Under the pieces are notes generated by a model, which saw only the letters and a list, made by a program, of their open reading frames with translations, did no database searches and was not told the origin of the DNA. Of a stretch of DNA of 64,000 nucleotides, positions 41,708 to 64,000 are shown piece after piece (within the stretch, counting starts at the first letter, position 1; each line of letters begins with the position of its first letter). Origin of the DNA: Cymbomonas tetramitiformis (taxonomy: Eukaryota > Chlorophyta > Pyramimonadophyceae > Pyramimonadales > Pyramimonadaceae). The stretch spans positions 1 through 64,000 of the forward strand of contig LGRX02035075.1 in the NCBI GenBank assembly GCA_001247695.2, given 5' to 3'. The position numbers and the translations under genes are program-made.

Positions 41708-42130
41708 TGATATTTTGCAGGAAATAATAATAATAATAAAACATTTACGCTAGCAGAAGGGACAAAGTCCTGAGAGTGCGGTAACCCTGCAAAGCAGGCT
41801 AGTGAAAACACTAGGGGCTACTCCCTCTACTATAGCGCGCCCACAAAGGGGCTCAACCCACTTTTCAGCAGGGTGACATCTAGAGAAAAAGCTAGGTGCT
41901 AAGCAAAAAACTCTAGAAGATGGAGAAGCAGCCATGGCCGGGTGAGTGGAGGGGTGGCTGAAACTAGGCGGTGGGGAGGGAAGTCGAAGAATTAAGGGGG
42001 TATTTGGAGACGATGAGGAAGGAGGTCAGGGTGGGCGGAGGAGAGGGGGGGGTGGTGGGGGAGGGGAGAGGGGGGGGGGCCCCTCCCCTATAGGACAGAG
42101 AGCCATCTTTTATTGCAAGACTTTTGAAAA
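41708..42130 (-). other. 3' UTR and possible tail of the LINE-like element
   Basis: On the minus strand an AATAAA lies at 42108-42113, just after the ORF2 stop, followed by a G/C homopolymer-rich stretch (42030-42090) and, near 41725, a (TTA)n run that could be the simple-repeat tail of a LINE. The exact 3' end is not fixed. Confidence 0.5.
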
Positions 42131-45100
42131 TTATTGCAGGAGGGTTTGAAGAAAGTCATTTGTTTTTTGCACAGCTTCTGTTTCAGTCATGGTCTCATTG
42201 CCCAGGATGTCAACTGTATGCGGGTCAGTGTTCAAGGTGGTGGGGGTGTTTAGCAGAAACAAGTCTCGCCTATTTCTGGTGTGTTGCCTACAGATTCTTG
42301 AAAGTTTTTTAAGGAGAGTTTTAATCTTGCCACGGGGAACACCTATCGTGTTGAGGACAGTACCGAAAAGAGGAGGGAGGTACCCCATGAGTGTAAGTGC
42401 TTTGGGCCATTTCACGGTGCTAATGAAGGGCTTAGAAGCTGCATTGGTGATTGTCGTATCATGGTGACCGCCATAATAATGCTCAGCACCATTCTGATGA
42501 TAGGGGGGGTCTTGAGTGGGCCATGGGCACAACGAAGAAGGGAGTACGTTGTCCCTTTCGTTCAGAACTTCATTCCAAATATCAGAGCTAACTCCGGTGT
42601 ATTCTAGTCTCCTCTCCGTGACTCTGGACTTAGGAAGGACATTGAGGAACCATCTAGCAATCTTTTTCTGTGTAGGCCTCCAGTCAAAGGCTGGTTGAGT
42701 ATCGCTGGGTGCACTGTCTATAGCTATGATAACGACATCCGAAAAATCATCCTTATAGCATCCGCCACCTGGGAGAACGTAGGGGTCATCACCCGTCCAA
42801 TAACCATGTGGGATAAATGGAATAGTGTTATGCGGGAATCTGAAAACGAGTTTAAAACCTTTATCAAACCATCTTTTTTGGTTTTTGGGAGACAGTGGAA
42901 GAATCCATGTTCCTGAAAATCCGGGTACAGTGTTGGCCGCTTTATGTCCCATTTCCAAGGTAGTCATAACCGCCGAAGATTTGCCCTTATCCTTTCCATC
43001 AAAGGGGGGATTTCCGTAAACTATTCTGCCAATGCCTGTTAACGGGTCCACGTAGGCATCCCAAGCGAGGCCATCAAAACCGATTTTCCCATGATAACAG
43101 AAGGGCTTGAGGGCTTTTTTCATTCTAGTGGTGGGTATGCATCTTCTCGAGTAAATTCTAGGGTGGGCATTTAGTGGGTTGGAGAAAAGTTCACAGCCGT
43201 TTTTGTCAAGGTTTCTGTCATCCACCAAAATATCTAAGAGGCTTCTTCTTATTGCATAGCAGTTTTTAGGGTCTCCCGATTCAAACTTACATGCATTGAG
43301 GGCTTCATGGATATCGTGTGCCCTATTCGAGTACTCCGCAAGTGAGCATGGGACTGCTTTGTTGGAAAGGCGGTGCCAAGCCAAAAGTTTCCAAAACTCT
43401 TTCTTTTGGACATATTGGAGTTCGGGATATTTAATTGTTCCCGTAACATGGTCCACTTCAGGTTTTGCGGTCACAGCAATGGTATTCTTTTTTGAACTTG
43501 ATGGACGGTACATGCTAGCTTCCGGGAGAGCGTGTAAGTATAATTCTTCATTCATTTCCTGTCTTAGGTCAGCAAGTGGAAAAAGTTTCGATGGTTGTGT
43601 TCTGATGTATGTGGTACCCTTTCCAGGGTTTAGTAGTTTAGGCTTTTCTGAGATTTCTTCAGCGATGATTTTCCTTAGTTCGATATCTTGGGTTGTTCTA
43701 AGGTTATACAAACTATCATTATGTCCTGGGCATTCGAGTTGGATGTGTTCGAAGGTGCATTTTGTATTCTGTTGGCAGTAGGGGCAGTTTTCGGACCCGA
43801 TTTTCCCCAGTTTAAATAAGCGTGCAGGAGAGGCTTGAAGACCCAGGAGTTCTCTACTTCTAGAAGCGGTGAAAGCTTTAGGTGTCATTTTGGAAATATC
43901 TTTGGTGGGGGCGGTGTTATTCTCGTTGAGCATTCTCAGATGCTTCCCTTGGGACTGTAGGGTTCTCCAATTATGATAGTGTGAGAGTCGTTGAATTCTT
44001 CTGATGTGGCTACGTATATCGCCTAAAATAGGGACCTCAAAAAAGAATAATGAGAAGGGTAGTTCCTCAGCAGGGTCGTAGCGGGAGATGTCAAAACAGC
44101 CCCCTCTGAATGAGGCTCTTTTAGCAGTACGGTCCACTCTGTCGTGGACTTTGTCATTATTGTGACCCCTAATCCATTTAAGGATGATTTTACTGTGGTC
44201 TCCTTCACTGTAGAAGCCAAGTTCTTCTAGCAGTAGGCGAACAGCCTGCACATCTCTGCGATTAGCTTCACGTAGTTTGTCCCGAGCACTCATGGACCTG
44301 CCATCCTTTGTTACCGCAGATATTGCTGCCATGGAGTCAATGGCATGTACCATTGGAGTAATAGATTTGAGGAGTTTCTCTTTTTGTTCTGTGAGTAGAA
44401 ATCGCAGTCCCGCAATTTCAGCAGATGTGCTACTCGGGTTTTGGATATCCTCCTTGATAAGGAGCCCCTGTGCGGAGAAAGTTCTTGAGGGGGGGATATT
44501 CATCTTCCGTACAAGTGGCATCCCGTTGTCAAAGTTTTTTATAGCATATGCTGCCCCACTGCATGCTGTTTTCTTTCCAGCAAAAAGGGAACCATCGCTT
44601 GCCATATCGTAGTCTTCCATTTGTTTGCTCTTTTCGGCGTTGGGGGTGAATTCTTCTTCCGAGTCGCTAGGGCAACTGTATTCACTTTCTTCCTCCGCAG
44701 TTTTGTTTTTCATTCTAGCAATAATGGTTTCATACTGTCTGTCTGAGATGTAATCATAGTGTGAGTTGATATCACTAACTGTAGCAAGGACAGAAGAGGG
44801 CGGGTCCATGTGGTCATTATATTCAAAAATAGAACCTGCTGGAATTAGGATGCAACCGTCATTGGTGATGCTATATTCAAAGTCGTATTGGAGACTGTTG
44901 GTACCTTTGATTCTGACAAAGACATTAGGGTTTATGGCATTGTTACTGTATTCTGTATATTGTATTGACATGGCCTCTAAGTCAATATTGGTAATGTGAA
45001 TAAGAGAGATGGAATTTCGGTCACCATTTCCTTTCCAATGAAATTCACCCGTGTCAGGGGGTACTATGTTGTCTCTATATTGTTTCTTGACATATCTAGC

Positions 45101-48100
45101 CTGTGGGTCCAAATCTACAGGGTTTTGAAGCATTTCCTTTTCGATTTCGGTTAGCCATCCAGGGGGTCTACTGCCATTCAGCCTGAAAAAACATTTATTT
45201 TCTTGCCAGTTTTTTAACATTCCACCGCAGGGAGTTAGAAAGGAACCTGTGTGCTTGAGGTTGTATTTTTGTATTGCGGAGGTAACATTCCTCGACATGT
45301 AGAGTTGTCTGGGAAGGGTGGTGATTAATGTGGTTTCACCCGCTTCATTTTCAGGGTAATTTTTAGAGTCAATAGCGTATCCAAGTTTTGCCATAATGTG
45401 ACCTGTGCGCCTAAACCAGTTAAAGCGTTTGTCTTTAGTATGACTGTAGGTTGCATAGTGCGATAAGGGGAAACCCGATATAACATTTTTACCCATTTCG
45501 TTGTTCATGTTTTGAATTATTATTTTAAGCCATAGATTGCTATTTCTACGGTATAGTGAGATGAGGTGGGGATCAGTGATACGGTCCGTGTGGTTGTGTT
45601 GCCAATATTCGTGTTCATCCGCAGAACACAGGGTGTTCATAGTTTCGGTGATACACGACGCGGTTACAACATCAAAGACACTATCAATACCGTACCCGCC
45701 TTGGCAGACTGCTGTCCAGATTATTTGGTGATTGGTGTCAACTGGGCAGCCCAAATATTTAATTATAAACGAAGCTATCATTTTGTCTAATTCAATTGCG
45801 ACATTCTTTGAGGAGTTGGCAATTGCTGAGGTAACTTTAAGGGGGTATGCCATCCTCGGAACTACAACCGCATTTATAACATATCTTAGCTGATGTAGAG
45901 TCATGTGTTGCAGTTGGATGGATGTGAGAGTAGATTTAAGTCTGTCGATAAGGATTTCCGACTGTTTGTCCCATTCCCCATTTAGTGCAAACCATACTCC
46001 GAGATATCTGTTTACCTCTTTGCTGTTGGCGAAATCGAGGAATTCTGGTGACTCAGGGGGTATCCATTTCGAATCAATGGAAGGACTTGAGTCATTTGTA
46101 TTGGGCTCCAGGTGACCCCCTGAGATGAGTAAATCATCGGACGGGTCATATCGCGTTACTGTTTTGCCCTGAGGTTTAATGCGCTTTCTGTAAGAGTATT
46201 TGGATTTCTTAACATTGATGGGAATACCAATGAAGCTCATAAATTCATTAACTATACCTAGCATGTCTTGAACTTCGTCTTTAGTTTTCCCCACGAGAAT
46301 GATGTCATCACAAAAGAACCGTGCAAAGACATTTAAAGTGGTGTCCTTTTCTAATAGGTTTTGGGAGGGAGGAATAACATTATTTCCTGGTTTGTCTGGT
46401 CTATGGCGTTCCGAGCTCAGTTCATATCCATATGTGGATCCTGTCGGGTTTACACCGTTTGCTCTTTTTGCTAACCAAATTGCCAGAATGTCCATAATGG
46501 CTACAAACCTTAGTGGGCTCAAAACTTCTCCCTGAGGGACTCCACATTCTAGGGACCATTCATCCGTGAGGCCTTCTTCAGTGAGTACCATTCTAGAGGC
46601 ATCATTAGTAATGTCTGAGATGATGTTGATTATTTGTGATGGGAGTCCCAGCTTTCTCAGCGCTAAATTGCTCATCCAGAATTCAGCTCTGTCAAATGCT
46701 TGTTTGAGGTCCAAGTAAACTACGTGGAGGTCTTTGTCGTATCTATTGGCATCCGAAATTACTTCATTCAGAATTTGAAGTGAGTCATCTATGTTTTTAT
46801 TCGGAAGAAACGCATCTTGGATGGGAAAGAGAATGGGGTGAGTGTTAAGTATTGTTTTGAGACGGTTAGCAATTATTGTGTTAAATAGTTTAAGACCCGT
46901 TTCCAACATTGTGAGGGGTCTAGAGTTATCTATTGTACATGGTGCAGAGGGATTTTTAGGGATTGGAAGGATGACTCCAGATTTTGCACTCTTTGGAAAT
47001 TTCCCAGTTATAAGAATGTGGTTAAAAAGTGAGACAGTAACCTCTTGAAAATTCTCTGGGCCCTTGATCCACTGCGAGTATCTCATTCCTGAGGGTCCTG
47101 GTGCTGTGGAGATACCACAGTCCGAGTATGCTTGTTGGAGTTCTTTGTGCGTGATTTCTGCCAGTAGTCTAGCAGCGGCCGTATCGGGGATTTTAGGGCT
47201 GTCCTTTAGAATGTCAGTGAGCCACTGTGGGAGTTCATCTGGCTCGTTCGGGTTAGTAGAAAATAGTTTTTTATTTTTGTATTCATCTAGTGTTGTGTTT
47301 AGTCTTTCTGTCTTTGTCTCAGGTATCTTTCCATCACTACCTGGGGTAGCGGCTGCACCTTTTTCAGTAGGTTTCATCTTTCCCATGACTGTGTCTAGAA
47401 ACCTCGAAAGGTTAGTTGAGAAAAGATGCTGCAGGGCTTCCTTTTCTCGGAGATTGCGTCGTTCAATGTCAGTGTCTCTGCTTTTCTGAAAAGCATTTCT
47501 GATTATTACATAATTTTCATGCAAACGTGATCCCCATGTGGCTGCCGTTTCATTGTGTTTGGGTTTGAGCGAGGCAAAAGGTAGCGTGCGGGCAGCCTTT
47601 TTGGCTTGCTTAGGAATGTTGCTTGCATGAGTTCTTGTGTCCAAATATTTGATGATGCGGCGTACTGTGTTTAGCCATTTGTATATATAGTTAGATATTG
47701 CTGATGGTTTTTCAGACCTCCCAGCTATGTTCAGATTCTTGGTGCCAAAGGCGTCACTTGCCGCCTGATGTGCCAATTTGTGCAGGGTATCCCATGTCGC
47801 GTCAGGGTGCATTTCCTTGAGGCCAGTGCCGCCGTTTCTAGTTGCTTCCGATCCATTTTCCATTTCAAGTGTGCTATGTAGTCTTTCAGTGTAAGACACC
47901 CAGCCTGTAGCGTATTGGAATAAATGGGCGGTGCAATCTATTTTTTCCGAATGCATCTCAGATCCGTACAGGTTCCAGAATTTAGCAGGCATATGGGGTT
48001 GTAGGAGAATATTCCAGCTGGTCATGTGCTCCTCTGTGTTGGATTTCGTGATTTTCTTAACTTCCAGTGAGCTGAATGACAGATGTCGTTTGAGATAGGC

Positions 48101-51100
48101 ATTAACATCTTTCTTATTTAAAAGGTGAGGCGAACCTATATGCCAGATGTTATCTTTGTCGTTATGGCCTAAGTTGAGACCACCTTCCGGCATCCCCTTT
48201 CCTCTAGAGAGTAAGTGGGCTGCATGCCATGGGCTATTAAGGTGAATCCACCATTCCTTGGGTTTGTTGTGCCATTTCAGACATTGTTCTATATTGTCTG
48301 CCTCTTTATTTTTAGCTATGAGCTTACTCACTGTTATGGGGCTGCCGTCAGTATTATCCCGTTTAAGATCAAGATCAGTGGTGTCACCCTTAATGGTGCT
48401 GATAGCGGTTCTAGCTTTGTTTTTATTGATGCACGCGTGCACGAGTTCGTTTGTGCTGTATCCGTTTGCTTCGAGAAGTCCTACAATATCTTTCCTGTTT
48501 ATTTTCCTTTTTGTACCCTTATTTTTGTTTGTCATTCTAATTGGGTACCCTGGGTACTCATCATGTGTAGTTTCCTTGGCACCATTAAATCTAGGTGTTG
48601 GCAAAGTTGTATCGGTGGAAATCTCCGGTTTGGTGTCGATTTGAGGGAGCTTAAATTCAGCCCATACTATCCCGTGGTCGGAGATGATATAAGGGTTTTC
48701 CTCCGTCCATCCTGTTTTAACGGTCATTTCTGCCATAGCTGTGTTGGCCATGATATGGGTGAGTTTTGCTTTTGAGTTTTTGGATATGACATGTGTGAAA
48801 ATTTCCGTGTTTGGATTACGGTCCATTATCAGTTCATTAAGGGAGCATCTGTCATTGTTGAAATAGGTTAAAAGATGCTTATTCTTTTCGACATGCTCTT
48901 GATACGACATGTAATTTCCACCTGACACCCGCTGATTTGGGGTAATGGTGCAGTTTTTGTCACCTATCTCTACGTAGGCCTTTTTTGGATTATTTCCTGC
49001 CCTCCCTGCCCAGTCAGTAAGTGTGTCATATAATTCCACTTGTTCCTCTACTAGTGTAGCATCATTCATATAACCGCTGGCTACGTAGAGCTCAAAACCG
49101 TTATTTCCTGAAAATTTGGTCATTACTGCTCTCTTTGCATCTCCATCGATTGTGGTGACCGAGGTGGATAGTGGCAAACTTTTCGGATTCCATAGGATCA
49201 TGGAACCAATGGAAGCTCTTTCATTTACATGAGACGTGCGAAATTGGATTCCTTTTTGTGTCATTAGGGTTTTGATTAATGCAAGGTTTTCAGTATTTAC
49301 CTTGGTTTCTGATATACATATTATATCAGCCCGTCCGTCAATTAAAAGATTGCAGATTGTTTCTAATTTGATTAAACTGTCTTTATCTTCTTTGTGGTGT
49401 CGGAGGCCTCTCATATTCATACCCATTATAATCAAATTGTTAGAGTGTTGTGCTAGTTGTAGTTTAGTGAGTCGGTCTATTTCTTCTGACTGTCTCATGG
49501 CGTTTTTGTGTTTTGCTTTTTGTAGTATGCATCTGCCATCTGCGTCATAAATGTTCTCGATATCAAAGATTTTGTTTGTGCATTTGGTTTTACGGATTAT
49601 TCTCTTTTGTTTATGAGAGTGTTTCCTGCGGTATCCATATGTGTGAGGTTCACAGGAAGGCTTTCCTTTGCCTGAGATGAGGTGATTATACGCAGTGTGG
49701 GTGGATTTACAGTCTTTGTGCTCAGAATTTGGCTTTGTTGGATGTGCATCAATTTTCGGATGGTGGGTTCTCAGTGATTGTCGTATGGTCGAAATGGCTT
49801 TATTATTTTCGTGTTTGGTTATCCTGGCTTCTCTACCCGTTTGTGGTAGAATTCTAATGTTTAGGTTTTCAAGTTCGTATAGTAGGTCTCTGTTTAATTG
49901 TGCTGCTGAGAAGAATTTAGTGTTGTGCAGAATGTGACAGACTTTGTGGGCTAGTGTAAAATTGAAAACCCCCATGTTATTCGGGTGTACTCCCAGTTTC
50001 AAAGTTATGCGGTGCACCCTCAGGTCTTGAGGAAAAAGTGTGGAAATGTCTTTCTGGTGTTTATTGTTAGAGATATCAAACTCACAGTGAATAATCTGTC
50101 TTTCTGGAATGATGTGGACTGCAGTTGACCATATGTCCTTAGCCACAAGAAGATGAATTTGAATGTTGGTGTTATCCGTGTTCGAGGTGTGATGATATTT
50201 CCTATGCGATTCGATGGCTTCTGAAACTATTGTTTCATTAGTGGTGTGTGTCTTCCATTTCAGTTTAAAAGTTTCTATCAGAGTTTCTATCTGCTTTTTG
50301 GGTGTGGCACCTCTGCGTGTGAGGATGTGGTGGGGAGGTAAGGTCATATTAGGGCCGCTGATTGCGGCGTCATTTCCAGCGTGCTCCAAGTGTTTGAGCT
50401 CCAGTGTGTTACAGGTATTCTTTACCTGCAGCCCTATTTCTTCCCTCATTTCTAATCGGTATTTATGTATTTCCTTTTGCATCGTTTTGTTGCCATACTC
50501 CCCAATATATAAATCAGATTTTAGGTACTCGAAAAATGAGGTCTGGTGCAAGCCTCTGTTCCATTGTGCCCATCTGAAGGCGGTTTTTGCTACCCATGTG
50601 CCACAGTTGTATGTATCTGTTTGAAATGTTTCCTTGCTAGTGGTAGTTGTGAATTCATTATATTCTGTAATGGTTATGAAATTTTTTAACCAGGTTTTGA
50701 GTGCTGCCTCAATCATATTAATGGTTTCTCTTTCGGCTTTATCTCCGAAGGGATCATATATGTAAGCTTCTATTTTCCCAGGTGATGATGAGCGAATCAT
50801 TATGAGACGCCAATGTATATTGTCACACACGCCTATTTGTGTGTGGCCATATTTCTTGAGTCTGCTATTAATGAGTTGTGTGAGTTTTTGGTCCTCCCCT
50901 GTCATCTTCAGCATCATGTCTGTAAGGTCCATAGGGGCTATGGTACTCGGGTCCCGTATTTTCATTGCATCACCAACATGGGTTGCATTTAACCACCCCT
51001 TTTCTGAAAGGAGTGATTCCGTGGCCATTGTGGTTTCAACTACTGCGTTATCTTCGGTGCTTGCTCCACCGCTTAACAGCTTCTCGGGTTCCGAAATATT

Positions 51101-51517
51101 ATATTGTTTGGTATCGTTATCCTTCTTGTGGTGGGTTTTATATTTCATTATTCTTGAAGGTAAATTCATTTTGGGTTTCTTTGCAGTTTGGGTCCGTGTT
51201 CTCTCCCAAAGCCATGCCGTTTTGGGGTTTTGAATCATGTAGTTCAAGGCGCTCTTGCTTATCCTTTTGCAAGCTTTAGGTCTCTTGTGGGCTAGGTATA
51301 TTATGACTCTAGGTCCCGGGAAATATAGTTTAGGGTTCGACTTCATTTTGCTGAGTCCCGCCATCAAATGAAAAAACATGATAGTGGGCCCGTAAGTGGT
51401 TGTTTGCAGTTCCGCTCGTGTTTTAATAATATTTTCCTCACATCTCAAGAGGTGTCTCATTATGTAATATGTCATAATTATGCTGCCGCTTATGTCTTTA
51501 TCTATTTTTATTTCCAT
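42131..51517 (-). CDS. LINE-like ORF2: Ulp1-like protease, APE endonuclease, RT, RNase H, zinc knuckle, Dam-like methyltransferase motif
   Basis: A single intact 3128-residue frame. (1) Ulp1/C48-like cysteine protease, about 160-330: His235 (NIHWRL), Asp255 (IYDPFGD), Gln299 and Cys305 (YNCGTW). (2) APE-type endonuclease, 695-960: Asn701 (NMRGL), Glu737 (ISETK), GDKN at 852, SDH at 946-948. (3) Reverse transcriptase, about 1460-1790: Asp1603 (LDLKQAFD), GVPQGEVLSPL at 1659, FCDD at 1735-1738. (4) RNase H, 2305-2470: Asp2308, Glu2367, Asp2394, His2452/Asp2455. (5) CCHC-type knuckle C2578, C2581, H2591, C2596. (6) About 2700-2970: DGLAWDAYVDP then RIVYGNPPFDG, the NPPF (motif IV) at 2836-2839, as in Dam-like N6-adenine methyltransferases. 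All catalytic residues are present, so it could be active. The start ATG overlaps the stop of the upstream frame by 10 bases (AAATGGAAATAA). Domain roles are known family knowledge; the methyltransferase call is by motif only. Confidence 0.85.
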   Translation of the reverse strand: MEIKIDKDISGSIIMTYYIMRHLLRCEENIIKTRAELQTTTYGPTIMFFHLMAGLSKMKSNPKLYFPGPRVIIYLAHKRPKACKRISKSALNYMIQNPKTAWLWERTRTQTAKKPKMNLPSRIMKYKTHHKKDNDTKQYNISEPEKLLSGGASTEDNAVVETTMATESLLSEKGWLNATHVGDAMKIRDPSTIAPMDLTDMMLKMTGEDQKLTQLINSRLKKYGHTQIGVCDNIHWRLIMIRSSSPGKIEAYIYDPFGDKAERETINMIEAALKTWLKNFITITEYNEFTTTTSKETFQTDTYNCGTWVAKTAFRWAQWNRGLHQTSFFEYLKSDLYIGEYGNKTMQKEIHKYRLEMREEIGLQVKNTCNTLELKHLEHAGNDAAISGPNMTLPPHHILTRRGATPKKQIETLIETFKLKWKTHTTNETIVSEAIESHRKYHHTSNTDNTNIQIHLLVAKDIWSTAVHIIPERQIIHCEFDISNNKHQKDISTLFPQDLRVHRITLKLGVHPNNMGVFNFTLAHKVCHILHNTKFFSAAQLNRDLLYELENLNIRILPQTGREARITKHENNKAISTIRQSLRTHHPKIDAHPTKPNSEHKDCKSTHTAYNHLISGKGKPSCEPHTYGYRRKHSHKQKRIIRKTKCTNKIFDIENIYDADGRCILQKAKHKNAMRQSEEIDRLTKLQLAQHSNNLIIMGMNMRGLRHHKEDKDSLIKLETICNLLIDGRADIICISETKVNTENLALIKTLMTQKGIQFRTSHVNERASIGSMILWNPKSLPLSTSVTTIDGDAKRAVMTKFSGNNGFELYVASGYMNDATLVEEQVELYDTLTDWAGRAGNNPKKAYVEIGDKNCTITPNQRVSGGNYMSYQEHVEKNKHLLTYFNNDRCSLNELIMDRNPNTEIFTHVISKNSKAKLTHIMANTAMAEMTVKTGWTEENPYIISDHGIVWAEFKLPQIDTKPEISTDTTLPTPRFNGAKETTHDEYPGYPIRMTNKNKGTKRKINRKDIVGLLEANGYSTNELVHACINKNKARTAISTIKGDTTDLDLKRDNTDGSPITVSKLIAKNKEADNIEQCLKWHNKPKEWWIHLNSPWHAAHLLSRGKGMPEGGLNLGHNDKDNIWHIGSPHLLNKKDVNAYLKRHLSFSSLEVKKITKSNTEEHMTSWNILLQPHMPAKFWNLYGSEMHSEKIDCTAHLFQYATGWVSYTERLHSTLEMENGSEATRNGGTGLKEMHPDATWDTLHKLAHQAASDAFGTKNLNIAGRSEKPSAISNYIYKWLNTVRRIIKYLDTRTHASNIPKQAKKAARTLPFASLKPKHNETAATWGSRLHENYVIIRNAFQKSRDTDIERRNLREKEALQHLFSTNLSRFLDTVMGKMKPTEKGAAATPGSDGKIPETKTERLNTTLDEYKNKKLFSTNPNEPDELPQWLTDILKDSPKIPDTAAARLLAEITHKELQQAYSDCGISTAPGPSGMRYSQWIKGPENFQEVTVSLFNHILITGKFPKSAKSGVILPIPKNPSAPCTIDNSRPLTMLETGLKLFNTIIANRLKTILNTHPILFPIQDAFLPNKNIDDSLQILNEVISDANRYDKDLHVVYLDLKQAFDRAEFWMSNLALRKLGLPSQIINIISDITNDASRMVLTEEGLTDEWSLECGVPQGEVLSPLRFVAIMDILAIWLAKRANGVNPTGSTYGYELSSERHRPDKPGNNVIPPSQNLLEKDTTLNVFARFFCDDIILVGKTKDEVQDMLGIVNEFMSFIGIPINVKKSKYSYRKRIKPQGKTVTRYDPSDDLLISGGHLEPNTNDSSPSIDSKWIPPESPEFLDFANSKEVNRYLGVWFALNGEWDKQSEILIDRLKSTLTSIQLQHMTLHQLRYVINAVVVPRMAYPLKVTSAIANSSKNVAIELDKMIASFIIKYLGCPVDTNHQIIWTAVCQGGYGIDSVFDVVTASCITETMNTLCSADEHEYWQHNHTDRITDPHLISLYRRNSNLWLKIIIQNMNNEMGKNVISGFPLSHYATYSHTKDKRFNWFRRTGHIMAKLGYAIDSKNYPENEAGETTLITTLPRQLYMSRNVTSAIQKYNLKHTGSFLTPCGGMLKNWQENKCFFRLNGSRPPGWLTEIEKEMLQNPVDLDPQARYVKKQYRDNIVPPDTGEFHWKGNGDRNSISLIHITNIDLEAMSIQYTEYSNNAINPNVFVRIKGTNSLQYDFEYSITNDGCILIPAGSIFEYNDHMDPPSSVLATVSDINSHYDYISDRQYETIIARMKNKTAEEESEYSCPSDSEEEFTPNAEKSKQMEDYDMASDGSLFAGKKTACSGAAYAIKNFDNGMPLVRKMNIPPSRTFSAQGLLIKEDIQNPSSTSAEIAGLRFLLTEQKEKLLKSITPMVHAIDSMAAISAVTKDGRSMSARDKLREANRRDVQAVRLLLEELGFYSEGDHSKIILKWIRGHNNDKVHDRVDRTAKRASFRGGCFDISRYDPAEELPFSLFFFEVPILGDIRSHIRRIQRLSHYHNWRTLQSQGKHLRMLNENNTAPTKDISKMTPKAFTASRSRELLGLQASPARLFKLGKIGSENCPYCQQNTKCTFEHIQLECPGHNDSLYNLRTTQDIELRKIIAEEISEKPKLLNPGKGTTYIRTQPSKLFPLADLRQEMNEELYLHALPEASMYRPSSSKKNTIAVTAKPEVDHVTGTIKYPELQYVQKKEFWKLLAWHRLSNKAVPCSLAEYSNRAHDIHEALNACKFESGDPKNCYAIRRSLLDILVDDRNLDKNGCELFSNPLNAHPRIYSRRCIPTTRMKKALKPFCYHGKIGFDGLAWDAYVDPLTGIGRIVYGNPPFDGKDKGKSSAVMTTLEMGHKAANTVPGFSGTWILPLSPKNQKRWFDKGFKLVFRFPHNTIPFIPHGYWTGDDPYVLPGGGCYKDDFSDVVIIAIDSAPSDTQPAFDWRPTQKKIARWFLNVLPKSRVTERRLEYTGVSSDIWNEVLNERDNVLPSSLCPWPTQDPPYHQNGAEHYYGGHHDTTITNAASKPFISTVKWPKALTLMGYLPPLFGTVLNTIGVPRGKIKTLLKKLSRICRQHTRNRRDLFLLNTPTTLNTDPHTVDILGNETMTETEAVQKTNDFLQTLLQ

Positions 51518-53131
51518 TTAAAATATATTTCGGACCGTGCTGGGCTTACTATAAGATACATATCTTGTGTTAAGTTAGCAGCCCGTATTTTGAGGTAAAG
51601 CTGCCGTGTTAAGTTAACACATATGTGTGTTAAGTTGACATATTGTTGCCTTAAGTTAACAGGCTGCCGAGTTCGGTTTGAAGACTGTTTTCTTAAGCTA
51701 TTAGTGGTGTATATTATGCTAACAGACTGTATTGTCACACTACCAAACCGGCATTTATTGGTGGCATAGGAACTAGTTACGTTCCTAACTTGTTTAGTGA
51801 CCTCTACGTATCTGTTTGAAAGGTTTAGTCTTCTATGTATCAGTCTGACAGTGCGCACCCTGCTTCCCCCATTCCCGTGGCTTCTAAGCATTATTGCGCT
51901 CTCCGTGTTACGCGTTACACCCACCTGTTGCCTCCCCTCAGATACCATATCGTTTATTTGGGCATTCCTCTTTCGCACATGGTTTCGTATATGTCCTCGG
52001 GTCCCTTCCTTAAAATTTTTTGGTTCTAGGCTCTTTTTTGCAAAATTTCGATTTTTAGCGAATTGTGCCTCATGCAATTCGCTTCCGGTCCAAGGTTGTC
52101 CGTTTTCCTTTATTTTTTCCCTACTATCCCTTATTGTCATATATAAGCATTGTGTGAAATATTTTCGCCCAATTTTACTCCTACGCACCTCTACCCGTCC
52201 CATATTCCCTAGGTATCGACTCGAGAGGTTAGGGTTTCCTATTATTTTGGTGCTTATAGCCGCCTTTCCCCTTAGAATCATGTGTTCGTGCCCCCGGGTC
52301 TCTCGTAAAATATTTTTATCATTTCTATTACGGTGTATTGCATTCAGTACTAAGTTGTTTAAACACCAGGCTAAGTTTGCCGCAGCCCGCTTCAGGTTAG
52401 CAGCAAGCCGCTTCGGAAAGTATATGAGTTTATTTAAGTTATTAGTTAACCGCTTGTTGCTTTCCGAGCACCGTGTTAGTGATATTAAACTTACCGAGTT
52501 ATTTGCACATCGTAATAAAGTTACTAGGAGCCATATTGTGCTGTCTACGGGCTGTATTATTAAGTCAGCTAGGCACTTCATTGAGTTATGTGTAAGCCGT
52601 CTTAAGTTATCTGCATAACGAGGTAGGGTAGCTTTGGGCCTAGTATGGTTATTTTCAGACTGTTTGAAGTTGTCTGAGCACCGCGTTAAGTTATCAGACT
52701 GCCACCTTAAGTTTTCATGTTTCCAGGTAAGGTTGGAACATGAAGTGCTACGGTTATCTGTTAGTTGTATTGTGATATTGAGCCCCAGTTTAGAGACAAT
52801 ATCATTCCCGGGTTTGTCATAACAGGTGAGGGGGGAAATTTGAAAGAGCATATGTGTGAAGTTTACTAATCTGAAAAGGGGGCTAGAAAAGCAGTGCTGA
52901 TGAAATAAGTTGTAAACACAGGACAGACAGCACAGGCAAGCACACTTGACATAATTATCATATGCTCTGCTCTTACTTAGAGAAGAGAATTGGAAAGGAA
53001 GCAAGTGTGAGGAAGGTGAGTCCTTTCTGAGTATTATATTGTGCTCTATTGAGTCACACACCGTGAGATGCCGTACAAATCTTAAAGTGCAGGTAAGAAT
53101 TGAGAGCCTGGGGCAAAGAAGGTCAGGAAAT
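51508..53131 (-). CDS. Open spacer between ORF1 and ORF2 encoding Asn-Leu heptad repeats
   Basis: The ORF1 frame, if intron C is retained, stays open for over 500 more codons and stops inside the ORF2 start. Residues 492-624 of that 899-codon frame (52336-52734) form about 19 heptads, most beginning Asn-Leu (NLTWKHE, NLRWQSD, NLTRCSD, NLRRLTH, NLKRAAA, NLAWCLN). A second short run lies at 51595-51699 (NLRQQYV, NLTHICV). At DNA level this is a degenerate 21-bp minisatellite around TTAAGTTA on the plus strand. The non-repeat part between is basic and Arg/Asn-rich. It may be a genuine protein extension, or a minisatellite whose unit happens to lack stops. I know of no family. Confidence 0.4.
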
Positions 53132-55455
53132 TCAAATGTCAAAGTCCATATCTTGCAGAGCAGTGAACCTGTTTTGCAATTCTGCCCCTTCGGCCTGTGC
53201 AATCTCGCTGAGTTGTTCTGCTCTGCCTTTACCAGAGCCCTTCTTGCGGTCCCCGGGACTTGGTGATGTCTTGATTTGTGAGAGAGCTCTCTTTTTCCCT
53301 GAAAGGATTTGAACAGTTCTCGATCACGAAGTGGAATTGCAAGTCCGCAGGGCTCAATGGAAAGGTTAATGACGTTTTTGCAATGGAAGAGAGTGAGGGG
53401 AGAGAATGTAAAAAACTTTCGATCACGGGGTTCAGTTTCAACACCGCAGAGCTCAATGGAGAAGTTAATGATGTTTTTGCAATGGAGGAGAGTGGAGATG
53501 CTTTCACCTTTCTGGCAGGCCGTGCACCTGCAGTTTGGAGGATGCCCTCCGTGCCTCAGAGATGCCAAAGTAGCTGCGGTTTGAGCTGTTGTGTTCTGAC
53601 CGGAGCCCTCTTCAAATCCTGGTGGGAATGAAGCCTCGTCTGGCACTGCTTTTGCTGCTGCCGCTGCGGTTCGGGGGACTTTCACGTTAGGAGATTTCAA
53701 ACCGTAGATCCTGGCCGGGCAGTTCTTGGTGCTGTGACCGTTAGCAGATTTACCTTCACACTCACGGCAAATTAGGGCTGAGCACTTTGAGATGAAAGCT
53801 GTTCCCAGGCCTGACCAGTGGTATTCCAATGGAAGTGCGTACAGGGCGTGCTGTATGTTTCTTTTGTCAATCTTAGCAGGCTCCGGGTGACGGCCCAGTC
53901 CCGTTTTCAGAAGCACAAAGATTTGACGGATCAATCTCGAACGCCGCTTTGCTCCACGCACTCTGCTGTGAATTGTAAACGCCTGTTGGAATGTGACTTC
54001 TTTGATGAACTTTGAGAAGGGAGAGGCTCTGATGTGAGTGAGAATGTGAGCCAGTTTTGGTTGCTTGCCCGCCCTGAGAGACTTAAATCCTAACGTGATG
54101 CTGGTTAGTTTGCTGCTCTTTGGTGTAATGACAAAGTCTTGAGAGTCTACGACCACGATCGCGTATTCGACTAGTACTCTAGCTTCCTCGATTGAGGCAA
54201 CTTTCACGTGCAGGAAAGGGGTAGCGCTGTTTGGGTATTATTTCCCTTCCACACTGAAGATTGCAACTGTTTTTTGAGCTTGCAACAGCACCCCTTTCAG
54301 GAGTCTGCTAACTTCTGAGATCTCGCGCTCTGTGAAAGGTCCTGCGGTCAATGCGCCCAGTCTTTTGACTTTGACAGATGCTAGGAAGTCGTCGTTACTG
54401 AGACCACCGTCTTCGTCGTCAGTGTCGTAGTCGTCGTTCTCTTGCAGCTCCTTGTCGAGTTTCTCAAATTCTTCTGCTTCGTCGAGAGTAGAGAGGTCAA
54501 ATTCGTCACCCTCTTCGTAGTCTTGCATACCCGTTGGTTCCTGTGATGCGTCAAAGAAATGGAGCGCTATTCTAAGCTTGCACTCGTGAGAATGCAATTG
54601 TGTGAGCATATAATTTGAGCTTACCTCAGGTGGGGTGCGATCCTCTGCCGGTGGGAGCTGCGGCTCAGGTGGTGGTTCCACTTCAGGTTCAGGTGGCGCT
54701 TCAGTAGCAATGTCTTTTAGCTTCTGCCTCTCCAATGACTCCACTAGAAGCGAATGCTCACTCCTCGTGTCGTGCTCGCCTGAAGAGATGTCTCTAAAAA
54801 TGTTGGCAGCAGCTTCCAACACACGCGAGTACTGGTCGTAGTCCAGCAGCTGTTCTCCAACGTTCTTCAGGTTCTCGACGGTCAATTCAGAATTCGTGGC
54901 GGAAAGGATCTTCTTGGCCACGTCGCTCGCGCCAGCAACAAGCACTACTTGTTCTCCGTCCCTTGTCGCCACGTAGAAGAGGTCACTACAATTCTGTGCG
55001 AGATGCGCGTTAGTTACAGTTAGTGAATTCCACACTGGGTAAATTTCAGTTAGGGCTAACTTTCTGGAGTCATAATGGAAGATGAAAAGAAAGAATTTAA
55101 CAGGATTATTTACCTGCGCAGGTTTATGCATAACAATGCACTTCAAGGTTTGAGTGAGGAGGTTATAGGCTTGTACCTTGAAAATTGTGGCTGAGAGAAG
55201 TACTCGATTTCGCAATGCCAAGTCTCCAAAGTAAACAGGTACGTTCACTTCTTCGTGTTCGTCCAGGTCCTCTTTTACTGCCTTCATAAACTCAGTGTAG
55301 ATGTTGGAGCCAATTTCAATCCTCGTGAAACCAGAAGTTTCCCATACTTCGAATTGCGTTTTGATCTCAGCGCTGCGGTGTTTGATCTCTTCCAGGGTGG
55401 CAGCTTTATCCCAAGCTTGCCCTTGCGCGCTCTCCATATCTGTTTCTGCCTCCAT
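53132..55455 (-). CDS. LINE ORF1 (gag-like) with three apparent introns and one in-frame stop
   Basis: I start at the ATG at 55455; the frame upstream to 55680 begins just after a stop and looks like intron or leader. Apparent introns: A 54994-55113 (120 bp, GTAAAT...CGCACAG), B 54541-54624 (84 bp, GTAAGC...CATCACAG), C 53299-53507 (209 bp, GTGAAAG...CTTTCAG). Splicing A gives HKPAQNCSDLFY, B gives RTPPEEPTGMQDY, C gives CQKGKKRALSQ and a stop at 53132 after LQDMDFDI. All three are also free of stops if retained. A TAA at 54238-54240 interrupts an otherwise continuous frame (VEGK then YPNSATPF). Features: acidic region near 54450, a gag-like basic region, a zinc knuckle (CRECEGKSANGHSTKNC, near 53750), a second Cys cluster (NCRCTAC) and a likely coiled-coil tail. 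Likely the RNA-binding partner of ORF2. Confidence 0.6.
53298..53510 (-). repeat. Intron C made of two tandem repeats of about 105 bp
   Basis: Two units, each with CTCCATTGCAAAAAC, TCATTAAC and GATCGA words, fill most of intron C. In the retained frame they encode the paired segments LHCKNIINFSIELCG and FHCKNVINLSIEPCG. Confidence 0.7.
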
Positions 55456-56640
55456 ATCTGTTTCAATTTGAGAAATTGACAAACACACAAGCAAGATCGT
55501 TAGAATGTTTCGCGTATAGCGTCGTTTGTGGTGTTTGTTTATTTTCGTTTGTTGTACGATGTCGTTTGAAGTACTAGATGTTTGGTACCTCGCGAGCGCA
55601 GAGCAGAGCTCTTTGCTCACTTCACCAGGCTTATTTTTACGTACCTTTCCCGCAGAGATTAACTCGTTGGGCTCAGGCACGGGTTAGCGAAAGAAGATCA
55701 TAGCAAAATTTTGCGGGAAAGGCATATGTAAGACAGGGTTTGGGCATATTTAACAGAACAGGAAGGCGCAAATCACGCTGCAAAAAACAGCGCGCTTTTA
55801 CCTTCGCTTTTATCTTCCTCCAGCTTCGAAAAACCTTCAGAAAATATTATATCATAGTATTATTTTTTGGGTTCGGTATCATGTGGTTGGGTTTGAGCCC
55901 AAGCAAGGTTGGCATGAATCACGATTTTGAATTTACTATTGGTTTTCGAGCGCCTGTTTTGTATTCGTTCGTTCTGTTCGTTTCCCCTGTTGTGTGCGTT
56001 TTTTCCGAGGGCGATATCTGCACAGATTGTGCAGCGTGGTTTCGAGTCCCACCGCTCTCACTGACTTTGCGCTCTGTAATTTTGCAGGAGATTCCTGTTT
56101 CGCCGCAATGCTGAATGCCTGCTTGCCTTCCTGACTGCTTGTTTCGCGTGTGTGCTGTTACCCATTGCGTGTGCAACTGGTTATGTTATTTCATCTTATT
56201 TCTGACTTGTCTGCGTTTACTGCGTGCAGGTTTTTCTAATCTTTTATGATCATCGGCGAGACGCATGTTGCCGTGTGGAATTTGTGAAGAGTGTATTTTG
56301 AGCTATTTTGCTTATTGTTCTCGGATGTTTGTTTGCCTGACTGTTTTTATGATTTTTGCAATATTTTTTCACTTCGTTCTGACGTTTTAGCGTTCGCTGT
56401 GTGCAGGTATTTCAGTTTAACTTTCATCGCTGGCGAATTGCATGTTGCCGTGCCCATCATCCTGCCTAGCTTTTGGATATCAGAAGTCACTCCTTGATAG
56501 GATTTGTTTTGTTCATAGCTGTGACTTCATATTCGAAATAGTATGCACTGCGCTTTTATTGTAAATGTATATGCATAGTAATGTAATGAAAATAGAGTAG
56601 AAAATAGAATCATGCTGTGCTAACGTGAGCGCATTCTCCC
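55456..56640. other. Region upstream of LINE ORF1
   Basis: Includes a 3' splice-site-like run just before the chosen ATG (AATTTCTCAAATTGAAACAG on the minus strand). The rest is AT-rich without recognised genes and may contain the LINE 5' UTR and promoter. A tRNA-like T-arm at 56038-56060 was rejected. Confidence 0.4.
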
Positions 56641-60508: not shown

Positions 60509-63500
60509 TCAAATATGGGCTTGTTCAGCATACTGGGTAGTATCACCATCTGCCATGAACTTGCCCAAACTGAAAGTGAACATACCAATGCCTTCACCTT
60601 CTCCGCCCTGCAACATTCTAGCTCTGACCAGCGGGTTCTTGAACACCAAGACCCACATACACCTGCGGCCAATAGGTCCATGTTCCAGATGCCCAATCAC
60701 ATGCAGGCGTCCAGACTGACTCAATCGTCTGAAGTACGCGGCTCTGCTCTCAGTCATATCTGTCAAATAGTAAGAGGGAACATGCACGCATGCCACCACA
60801 CGGCTGGCCATAACTGCCAATGGGAATGCGATATCCAGCGCTGCAAACCAGGGAGAGGTCACCACGGCATCACAGACGCCATACTTCTCCTTCCATATGC
60901 GATAATTACCTGGCTGAAGTGCATCACGCGCCTCAGACCAACCCAGCTGAGGGTTCCAGTCATTGTTCATAAATCTCAACTGTGGCCATTGCTCCACCAT
61001 CACATCACTGATGACCCCAGTACCTGCCCATGGGTCCCACACGCCATAGATGGACTTCCAGTCCACCTCTGTCGCCAAGCGCCTCACCTCGGAAGGCACT
61101 GCGATAACCAGCTCAAGCCCCCACTGCAGTGCGCTAGCTTCGCGCACCTGGGCCCTGGTCATATGTCTCAATTCTCCTCGTTTTTCAACCTCTTCTTCAG
61201 CCAAAGCAGGCACCAGAGGTGCATCCCTCAGTTGCCTTGCCATTGCTTTCTGTTCTCGATACTTCTTGCTCAGCACGGTGCGATGTCCCTCATTCCAATG
61301 CCCAGGCATGAAGATCTTCACAGCCTCTGAGAGCTTGTCCTGTCTGCCCCAATCCACCTGATCTGGCATGTGGAGGAACAAGTCCTTCTCTTCCAGCATC
61401 ATCTCCCTTGACGAGATAGCATGCCATGGCTGAAACTTATCTCCCTTCACCACACGACGGGGACCCACGTCTGCTGGCAACAGGCGCATGTCTGAGGACA
61501 GCTTCTCGTTCAATTGCTGCTCCTTCATCCCCAATCTGTCCTCCAGGACACAAGAGCTCTTGGTTTCCTGGGTCTGCACCTCAGCGCTAGCAGCTTGCAT
61601 CCTCGTGCCTGAGCACCTAGGACATAGCCACTCGCCTTCTGGTACTTCATCCAGTGCTGGGGTAAGACACCACAAATGGTACCCCTTGTTGCACGTGTCG
61701 CACAACAACATCTCTGCCTCTCCATCAGACTTCCTGCACACTTCACATGCAAGATGTCTACTGGGCACGGCTGCACTACAGTCATACTGGTCCTTCACCT
61801 GCAGGTGACACGGCGCAATGCTCTGAACAGTGCTCTTCTCTCTTAACTTGGTGGCGTCCTCAAGAACCACAACACCATCTCGCTGTATCTTGACCAGCTT
61901 CAGGATGGCGGACTTGGTGGCGACTTCCATGCCGCTGCGAGGCTTCTGTCTGATGTAGACGAAGTCCCCCACCTTAAACTGGTGTGGCTTAGGCTCGTAG
62001 CCCCCACCCCTTCTCCCTTCATAATGTAAAGTATCACGATGCTGCGCAACCTCCAAGCTGCAGCCAGCATGCACCATCAACCGCCTCACTACCTGTGCTC
62101 TCAGGAGGAGGTCCTTGACTCGGGTGTCCTTGTCATCACTGACCTCTGGACTGAAATCCATGCTGGGCGCCTGCTTCAGATCTGGCGGCACCACTGCCTC
62201 TTAGGCATACAGCAAGGTAAACGGCGCCACTCATGTGGACTCTTGGCGTGCTGCATTGTAGCTCAGCACGAGTGGCCAGAGTTGCTCATCCCACTCGTAA
62301 TCGAGGACCTTCTCCAAGGCGATCTTCTTGAAGCAAAACTTCATTGTGCGCACCACTCGCTCGGTGAGGCCGTTGCCTTCTGGCGAGTCTGGCGAGGTGA
62401 CCCTTCTGTCTATCAGACAGTCTCTGCATAGCTGCTCGAACTCACCCTCGAACTCTTTGCCTCCATCCACCAAGCACTCTGCTGGCGCACCGAACACGGC
62501 TAGCACATGACTGCGAAATGCTGCCGCAATGGTGCTCGCCTCCTTGTTGGGGATAGGCACACAGACTATGAATCTGGTGTAGTGCTCGGTCATGATGAGC
62601 ACCCTGCTGTTACCAGCCTTTGTTACCCTCCTCGAAGTCCATGCCAAGTCCAGTGACCAACGATACATGAATGACACGATCTCAAGGGGGGACAACCACG
62701 CCTCCTCCCTCGCGTAATGGGTCTTCACACGATGGCAGGTCTCGCACTGAGTGACCACTGCCTCTACGTCCTTCTTCAGGTCGGCCCACCAATGACGCTG
62801 CCACAAAAGATGCTGTGTGCGCCTTATTCCCCAATGGCCAGTCCTGGAGTGGTACTCCTTGACCAATGTAAGACGGTCAACAAGCTTAGGTATCCTCACC
62901 TCCTTGCCCGACAATGTGATCATGTAGATCTCGTCTGTGGCCTCATCCCATCGGTGCCGTGCTGCGCGCCTCTTCACTCGACGGGCTTCATCCTCTGGCA
63001 ATTTCACGCTGCCATTGGACTTCAGCCATCTGAGGCACCACGCATCGTCATGCACATCTCGATGCTTGTCGCGGTCATCCTGCTGCTCAGCAACACTGGC
63101 CATCAAGTCCACAAATCTTGTGGTACATGCCAGCCTGGGAACTCTCATCTCTTTATCTTTACCAGGCGGACTCCAAGCAGGCACCTCAGCGCGTGCTGGT
63201 GGAGTTGCGCCCTCCTTCACGAAGTGGCTCTTGTGCCTCTGACGATACTGTTCAATGGCGTAGAGCTGCCACTCCTTCTTCTTCTTCTTCTTGGTTCCAG
63301 CCTTCTGTCGCTGAGCCCCAATTCCTTCTGCACCTTTCTGCCCTTGCGAGCACATTATCTGCAGCTTCTCTTCCCAGTCGCGGTGGCTCATAGTCTTCGC
63401 CACTTGCTGAGTGTATGCGTTCGAATTTCCAACCCATTCCGCCAGCAAAGCTTGTCTCTGCTGAAGGTCCGACCTCGCGTGGTCTGCCCAGTTGTTGTCT

Positions 63501-64000
63501 ACAGCGATAGGCTGTCCTGGGGAATTCTCCGCCACTGGGGATTCCTCGCTGTGAGGAAGTCCCTTCCTGCTTGCTTCTGCGACCGCCATCAACAGTTCCA
63601 TGACCCTGCGATCCATGGCCAGGCCCAGAATGCTTGCCAACTCTACGTCGTTCAGGCCATCAGCCATGCGTAGTTCACTTGCGCTGTAGCCCATGGCTCG
63701 CGCCTTCTCGTCGAGGTTCACTTCTCGGGATTCCTCCTCAGTGTCCTCATTGGCAGTGCGCACCACGGTGCCCATTCTCGCCAGTCTGAATGCTCTCGAC
63801 CCTTGCGTTGCCATGATGGTGGGAAGAGCCCTCAGCGGTTCTCCCACCACGTTCACCACATAGTGGGGCACGCGGTCTGTCCTTATCACCGGTCTGGGCT
63901 GCCAGCCCTTGCATAAGATTGACGATACAACTCGCCCTTCTGGCCTCGCCACCTTGCCCATCACAGAGCGAAATTGGTGGTTCTGGAACAGGTTACTCCA
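60509..64000 (-). pseudogene. Gypsy-type polyprotein end: integrase, PHD finger, methyltransferase-like domain (two stops; partial)
   Basis: Open from the window edge. Upstream part: HHCC zinc finger (H372, H377, C407, C410 counted from 63964) and integrase core Asp439 (SLDLAW), Asp500 (LVDGGKEF), Glu535 (NGLTERVV). In-frame TGA and TAA lie near 62231 and 62197, 10 codons apart; reading continues in the same frame. Counted from 62194: an SH3-like post-integrase segment (about 70-135, VGDFVYIRQK), a complete C4HC3 PHD finger at 150-194 (C150, C153, C165, C168, H173, C176, C191, C194) and a methyltransferase-like domain at about 360-525. The last shows DPWAGTG (387-393, SAM-binding motif I), NDWNP (411, motif II position) and TSPWF (446-450, motif IV position). 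PHD fingers read histone H3 tails; the domain fusion suggests chromatin-guided integration plus DNA or RNA modification, which is inference. Protease and RT lie beyond 64000. Confidence 0.75.

Follow-up and report, generated by a model that had tools for sequence, protein, structure and literature searches.

The minus strand of the window (the 64,000-nucleotide stretch of Cymbomonas tetramitiformis DNA analysed here, contig C24895:1-64000) carries a LINE ORF2 of 3128 residues that continues beyond its zinc-binding segment, which raises the question of what the C-terminal domain encodes and on what it would act. A sequence-only reading had described this domain as a Dam-like N6-adenine methyltransferase. 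An N6-adenine-type class I enzyme was supported by the present analysis, but the Dam-like part of the assignment was not, as no Dam-family match was found in Pfam, PHROGs or NCBIfam, and we replace it with PCIF1-like. The best explanation, to which we assign a probability of about 0.55 taken as a whole, is an APE-type LINE whose ORF2 is ordered Ulp1-like protease, endonuclease, reverse transcriptase, RNase H, zinc finger and PCIF1-like methyltransferase, with the methyltransferase acting on the element's own RNA.

Architecture and copies of the element

The window was compared with other copies in a genome assembly that comprises 25,745 contigs and 851.7 Mb, and the bounds of the element (Table 1) follow the limits of these matches. 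The copy match ended at 55868 on the 5' side (L050), and each of the six further copies compared, all carrying the complete ORF2 frame, ended at 41720-41732, in a (TTA)n tail. Outside these bounds the flanks of the copies compared were specific to each. The 3' tail and the differing flanks of the printed copies are as left by target-primed reverse transcription; inspection by eye revealed no target-site duplication at the window copy. The element is a full-length, recently mobile APE-type LINE with a gag-like ORF1, which is split into two frames in the window copy and is open throughout in L050. The end of the second ORF1 part overlaps the start of ORF2 by 10 nt.

Table 1. Features of the element in the window (aa, residues of the encoded protein).
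Feature	Position	Strand	Basis or remark
Whole LINE element, 14,146 bp	41723..55868	-	5' end 55868 (AAAAAAT...), 3' end 41723
(TTA)n tail, 3'	41723..41741	-	TTA repeat of variable length, then copy-specific flank in loci printed
ORF1 part one, 480 aa in window copy	54238..55680	-	L050 has one open frame here, 1391 codons
ORF1 part two, 899 aa, CCHC knuckle CRECEGKSANGHSTKNC by eye	51508..54207	-	
ORF2 polyprotein, 3128 aa	42131..51517	-	Single frame without stop
Ulp1/C48-like cysteine protease, ~aa 200-345	50483..50920	-	Motif by eye
APE-type endonuclease, ~aa 690-960	48638..49450	-	Exo_endo_phos E 0.0065, below Pfam curated cut-off
Reverse transcriptase, aa 1519-1783	46169..46963	-	Pfam RVT_1 7.4e-22, whole protein searched
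RNase H, ~aa 2300-2470	44108..44620	-	RNase_H E 0.00069, below curated cut-off
Zinc-binding segment CPYC...H...C, aa 2566-2597	43727..43822	-	zf-RVT E 0.17; motif by eye
Putative PCIF1-like methyltransferase domain, aa 2694-3010	42488..43438	-	Profile alignment, model, selection, conservation in P0004
ELFSNPLN, aa 2776-2783	43169..43192	-	Counterpart of PCIF1 ECFASPLN; profile alignment
NPPF, aa 2836-2839	43001..43012	-	Presumed catalytic motif

The ORF2 frame was uninterrupted, as had been read from the sequence, and the reverse transcriptase reported upstream of the domain was confirmed by Pfam; it is of the non-LTR type, with R2 (9.9e-24) and LINE-1 (3.2e-17) chains among its best solved relatives. 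The RNase H and zinc knuckle lay in the order claimed, with Pfam scores below the cut-offs. The same held for the endonuclease, which showed the motifs ISET, GD.N and SDH by eye and lies upstream of the reverse transcriptase; all three matches were under the Pfam cut-offs, yet their order is the expected one. The protease motif HW...DPFGD...Q..YNCG was seen by eye in the translation near the N-terminus, around residue 305, and in Pfam this segment matched ElaD-SseL-like_C only (E 0.11).

From an initial 5505 candidates, 77 matches to the 569-residue C-terminus were scored, and all were 99-100% identical. The full frame of 3128 or 3129 codons was present in 13 of the 77 and shorter in 64, and a stop fell within the 569-residue stretch in three; since only the best-scoring copies were scored, these counts show a large and recent family and do not speak to the share that is intact.

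Five of the six compared copies lost their match to the window beyond 52720 and had a different 5' part in common, and the sixth (C122, L049/L050) matched it up to 55868, which indicates two 5'/ORF1 versions on one ORF2. The other version was seen to its end in L040 and L044, 3121 bp past the switch point. Both versions encode a gag-like ORF1, in which a CCHC knuckle was recognised by eye, and their 5' ends, otherwise unlike, start with six or seven A in 4/4 ends read, with the flank of L040 also ending in A. The sharp switch near 52720 (window 52720-55868 against L040/L044), beside a nearly identical ORF2, is a module exchange in a LINE. Subrepeats of the AACTT type precede ORF2 in the window (51518-52720) and in L040; in the window version they lie inside an open frame that ends just within ORF2.

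Identity and conservation of the C-terminal domain

The motif DGLAWDAY begins at residue 2815 of ORF2 and is followed by NPPF, both where the sequence-only reading had located them. No Pfam match was obtained with the 569-residue C-terminus at E up to 10, and residues 2690-3060 had no match in Pfam, PHROGs or NCBIfam. No Dam family was reported by any of the three at E up to 10; PCIF1 was missed by the same searches too, and the domain did not reach the curated cut-off of PF12237, with no match at E up to 10. A PDB search with profile A2 gave no match. Two protein relatives, P0001 and P0004, had weak PHROGs matches only, of unannotated function.

A fold search with a low-confidence structure model ranked PCIF1 first, above RlmJ, KsgA/Erm and Dam types; PCIF1 had been named for comparison in the sequence-only reading. 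The first AF2 model (509 aa, pLDDT 42) was left out of this search. The match to PCIF1/CAPAM (PDB 6irv, 6irw, 6irx-6is0; PF12237), a cap-specific adenosine-N6 methyltransferase, spanned 139-156 residues and covered model residues 61-265 only; helices precede the fold in this model. The RlmJ, KsgA, METTL5 and METTL16 folds scored 5.8-6.8, one to two Z units lower than PCIF1, and Foldseek placed ErmE first. The domain shares with PCIF1 the NPPF motif and an E.F..PLN landmark upstream, here ELFSNPLN, which forms predicted strand 83-86 of the model and may have a SAM-side role. It differs from PCIF1 in being missed by the Pfam model, in its insertions before NPPF and in its place in a LINE polyprotein; the helical cap-binding part and the WW domain of PCIF1 were not found in it. 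The Dam-like assignment was not supported, given the absence of a Dam-class family match in these databases and the ranking of PCIF1 above Dam types by the low-confidence model. A fold nearest to PCIF1/CAPAM is supported but not proved, and the domain, with its conserved NPPF, resembles a class I methyltransferase of the N6-adenine type.

These comparisons also bear on whether the domain might be a DNA enzyme that methylates adenine N6 in the cDNA or the new insertion of the element itself. Parallels have been discussed for Dam-like enzymes in DIRS elements and for cytosine enzymes in other retrotransposons, but the nearest fold here is an RNA cap enzyme, the next are the rRNA enzymes RlmJ and KsgA, and no DNA-methylase family was matched in Pfam, PHROGs or NCBIfam. 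We regard this function as rather unlikely; self-methylation of cDNA, which the sequence-only reading had raised, is possible, though not the best-supported substrate.

The expectation that NPPF would be kept in other copies was borne out. It was intact in the primary match of all 30 loci read (L009-L038, the window's own copy L010 included), these being the best-scoring 30 of the 77 scored copies and biased to intact ones. A second copy in L049, 92% identical, has NPLF instead and two in-frame stops, and is dead. Compared with the window over core residues 2700-3010, it showed 40 synonymous and 18 non-synonymous differences, an N/S ratio about 0.14 of neutral (neutral N/S 3.12). The corresponding values were 0.10 for RNase H, 0.15 for the segment before the core, 0.24 for the zinc segment and 0.42 for the tail. 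Purifying selection on the domain is thus shown, as estimated from this one diverged copy.

Seven protein relatives of the domain were found (P0001-P0007), among them P0003, which is CYMTET_2905 of C. tetramitiformis and aligns with 34% of the query at 66% identity. P0004 (813 aa, ENA source) is 34% identical to the window domain over 307 columns and keeps ELFSN.LN, DGL..AY, YGNPPFDG, PFIP..YW.G and GCYK. It has a Pfam match to Peptidase_C48 (E 0.036), and its methyltransferase-like domain precedes the Ulp1-like segment, the reverse of the window order, which indicates that module order varies. Residues 2690-3060 gave no match at E up to 0.001 in a search of long proteins. A prokaryotic or phage source was rejected, as no relative appeared in viral_contigs (window domain and P0004 as queries) or genome_contigs (A2), scans that may omit entries from the window's own genome. 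Chance occurrence of NPPF was ruled out by the 30/30 conservation, the N/S selection and P0004. Judged by its residues in these loci and in P0004, the catalytic NPPF of PCIF1 appears to be present, and the domain would bind SAM and methylate adenine N6 through it.

A second repeat family with a PCIF1 domain

A search of the genome with PF12237 gave at least 151 matches (150 scored of 2094 candidates). The eight loci read (L001-L008) belong to a repeat family different from the window element; L051 is also a member (family loci include G000:C20989, C7214 and C323). Like the window element, this family has a Ulp1-like segment, a PCIF1-type domain and RNase H within one frame, as seen in L003 and L006. 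It differs in its clear PCIF1_WW match (L006: 7.2e-21, over the Pfam cut-off; RNase H 3.3e-17), in the placement of the domain before RNase H, and in having NPEY for NPPF in 7/7 regions printed (L007 left out). L006 matched human PCIF1 at 1.3e-11. Also present in the family are a zinc segment and, at the C-terminus, a stretch that is nuclease-like by eye.

The two families were compared with hhalign, using seven window-family rows and four second-family rows. The alignment covered 149 columns with a score of 33.7 (P 0.00042, probability 34%), against a maximum of 21.1 in 60 column shuffles, and paired ELFSNPLN with EVFASPLN, NPPF with NPEY and FIPHGYW with FLPPDHW. With human and zebrafish PCIF1 added, the score was 32.8 (probability 26%) against 24.0 in shuffles; the window family against human and zebrafish PCIF1 alone gave nothing (P 0.26). 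In HMMER, the window profile matched seven of the eight second-family frames marginally (E 0.001-0.005), and the second-family HMM reached ORF2 at E 0.056, with a marginal best domain of -3.6 bits at 2813-2910; with PCIF1 added to that HMM, ORF2 was not matched. A tblastn search of ORF2 against L001-L008 found no similarity in the domain and aligned just a single 37-aa piece in the region of the protease. A pairwise alignment (A4, L006 against the window C-terminus, 25%) was set aside as evidence.

A class I methyltransferase with another substrate, whether the adenine of an rRNA, tRNA or snRNA, or a protein in the manner of HemK-type enzymes with NPPF/Y, would account for the RlmJ, KsgA, METTL5 and METTL16 scores and for the Foldseek result. 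PMC8868631 describes NPPF/Y as common to RlmJ, METTL5, METTL16 and N6AMT1/HemK, the last a protein enzyme. Set against this are the higher Z scores of PCIF1 and the alignment of ELFSNPLN and FIPHGYW with a PCIF1_WW family of the same genome, and we consider another substrate quite improbable. Less probable still is a non-catalytic fold of PCIF1 descent, retained for a structural role or for binding RNA. NPEY in the second family, whose listed genome matches were all strong, indicates that a non-canonical form can persist, and few lineages attest that NPPF is conserved; on the other side, P0004 retains NPPF and the residues around it at 34% identity, and purifying selection acts on the core.

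Proposed substrate and relation to known elements

LINE ORF2 proteins bind their own RNA, and PCIF1 methylates the adenine adjoining the mRNA cap. Because ORF2 proteins do so, and because the top folds PCIF1, RlmJ and KsgA are RNA enzymes, the preferred substrate of the PCIF1-like domain would be the element's own RNA in the ORF2 RNP. The Ulp1-like protease may cut the ORF2 polyprotein. The target base would most likely be the cap-adjacent adenosine, since both 5' versions begin with six or seven A. Against this base stand the unmatched cap-binding helical part of PCIF1 and the Cap-0 ends that were the only form in the green algae tested, according to PMC11923408. That the LINE supplies its own enzyme for methylating the cap-adjacent adenosine and so marks its mRNA in cis, with m6A or m6Am at the starting A, is offered tentatively. 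Methylation would help transcript stability, translation or escape from RNA-level silencing, and the benefit of the mark would come before target-primed reverse transcription.

Captured cytosine methyltransferases in retrotransposons, which the sequence-only reading had mentioned, are indeed described in LINE, DIRS and Gypsy elements in PMC5890265. SymbioLINE-Dnmt and SymbioDIRS-Dnmt3 of Symbiodinium and Gypsy-Dnmt3 of Klebsormidium are, like the window element, algal retrotransposons with a methyltransferase under purifying selection; theirs are cytosine-5 DNA enzymes, in ORF1 in the case of SymbioLINE-Dnmt, whereas the window enzyme is adenine-type, has a PCIF1-like fold and forms the last domain of ORF2. 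DIRS retrotransposons with a Dam-like N6A methyltransferase, cited in the same paper, share an adenine-type enzyme with the window element, which differs in being an APE-type LINE with a PCIF1-like fold. NeSL/Utopia non-LTR retrotransposons (PMC4640811, main text) likewise have a Ulp1-like protease at the N-terminus of the reverse transcriptase protein; they carry a restriction-like endonuclease, unlike the APE-type window element, and the word methyltransferase is absent from that main text. The remark that an adenine-type enzyme in an APE-LINE could not be placed was fair, the precedents found being of other kinds. The kind of element, a retrotransposon with a captured methyltransferase, is already known; a PCIF1-type (RNA cap) enzyme in one would be new, no report of it having been listed in full-text searches of a collection that lacks most subscription papers.

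These results suggest the takeover of an RNA-marking enzyme by a selfish element. Were the domain active on RNA, the element would write its own epitranscriptomic mark, and, together with the second family of the same genome, PCIF1-type enzymes would be recurrent retroelement cargo. The effect of cap-adjacent adenine methylation on an RNA, and any use of RNA modification by transposons against host control, would then become testable.

A published long-read Cymbomonas assembly of 914.3 Mb in 35,945 scaffolds is described as rich in retroelements in PMC10675990. Two neighbouring minus-strand ORFs in the window, 60509-62194 and 62231-63964, are perhaps another retroelement, with matches to a PHD finger (7.4e-13) and to an integrase (Integrase_H2C2 8.6e-15, rve 3.2e-9).
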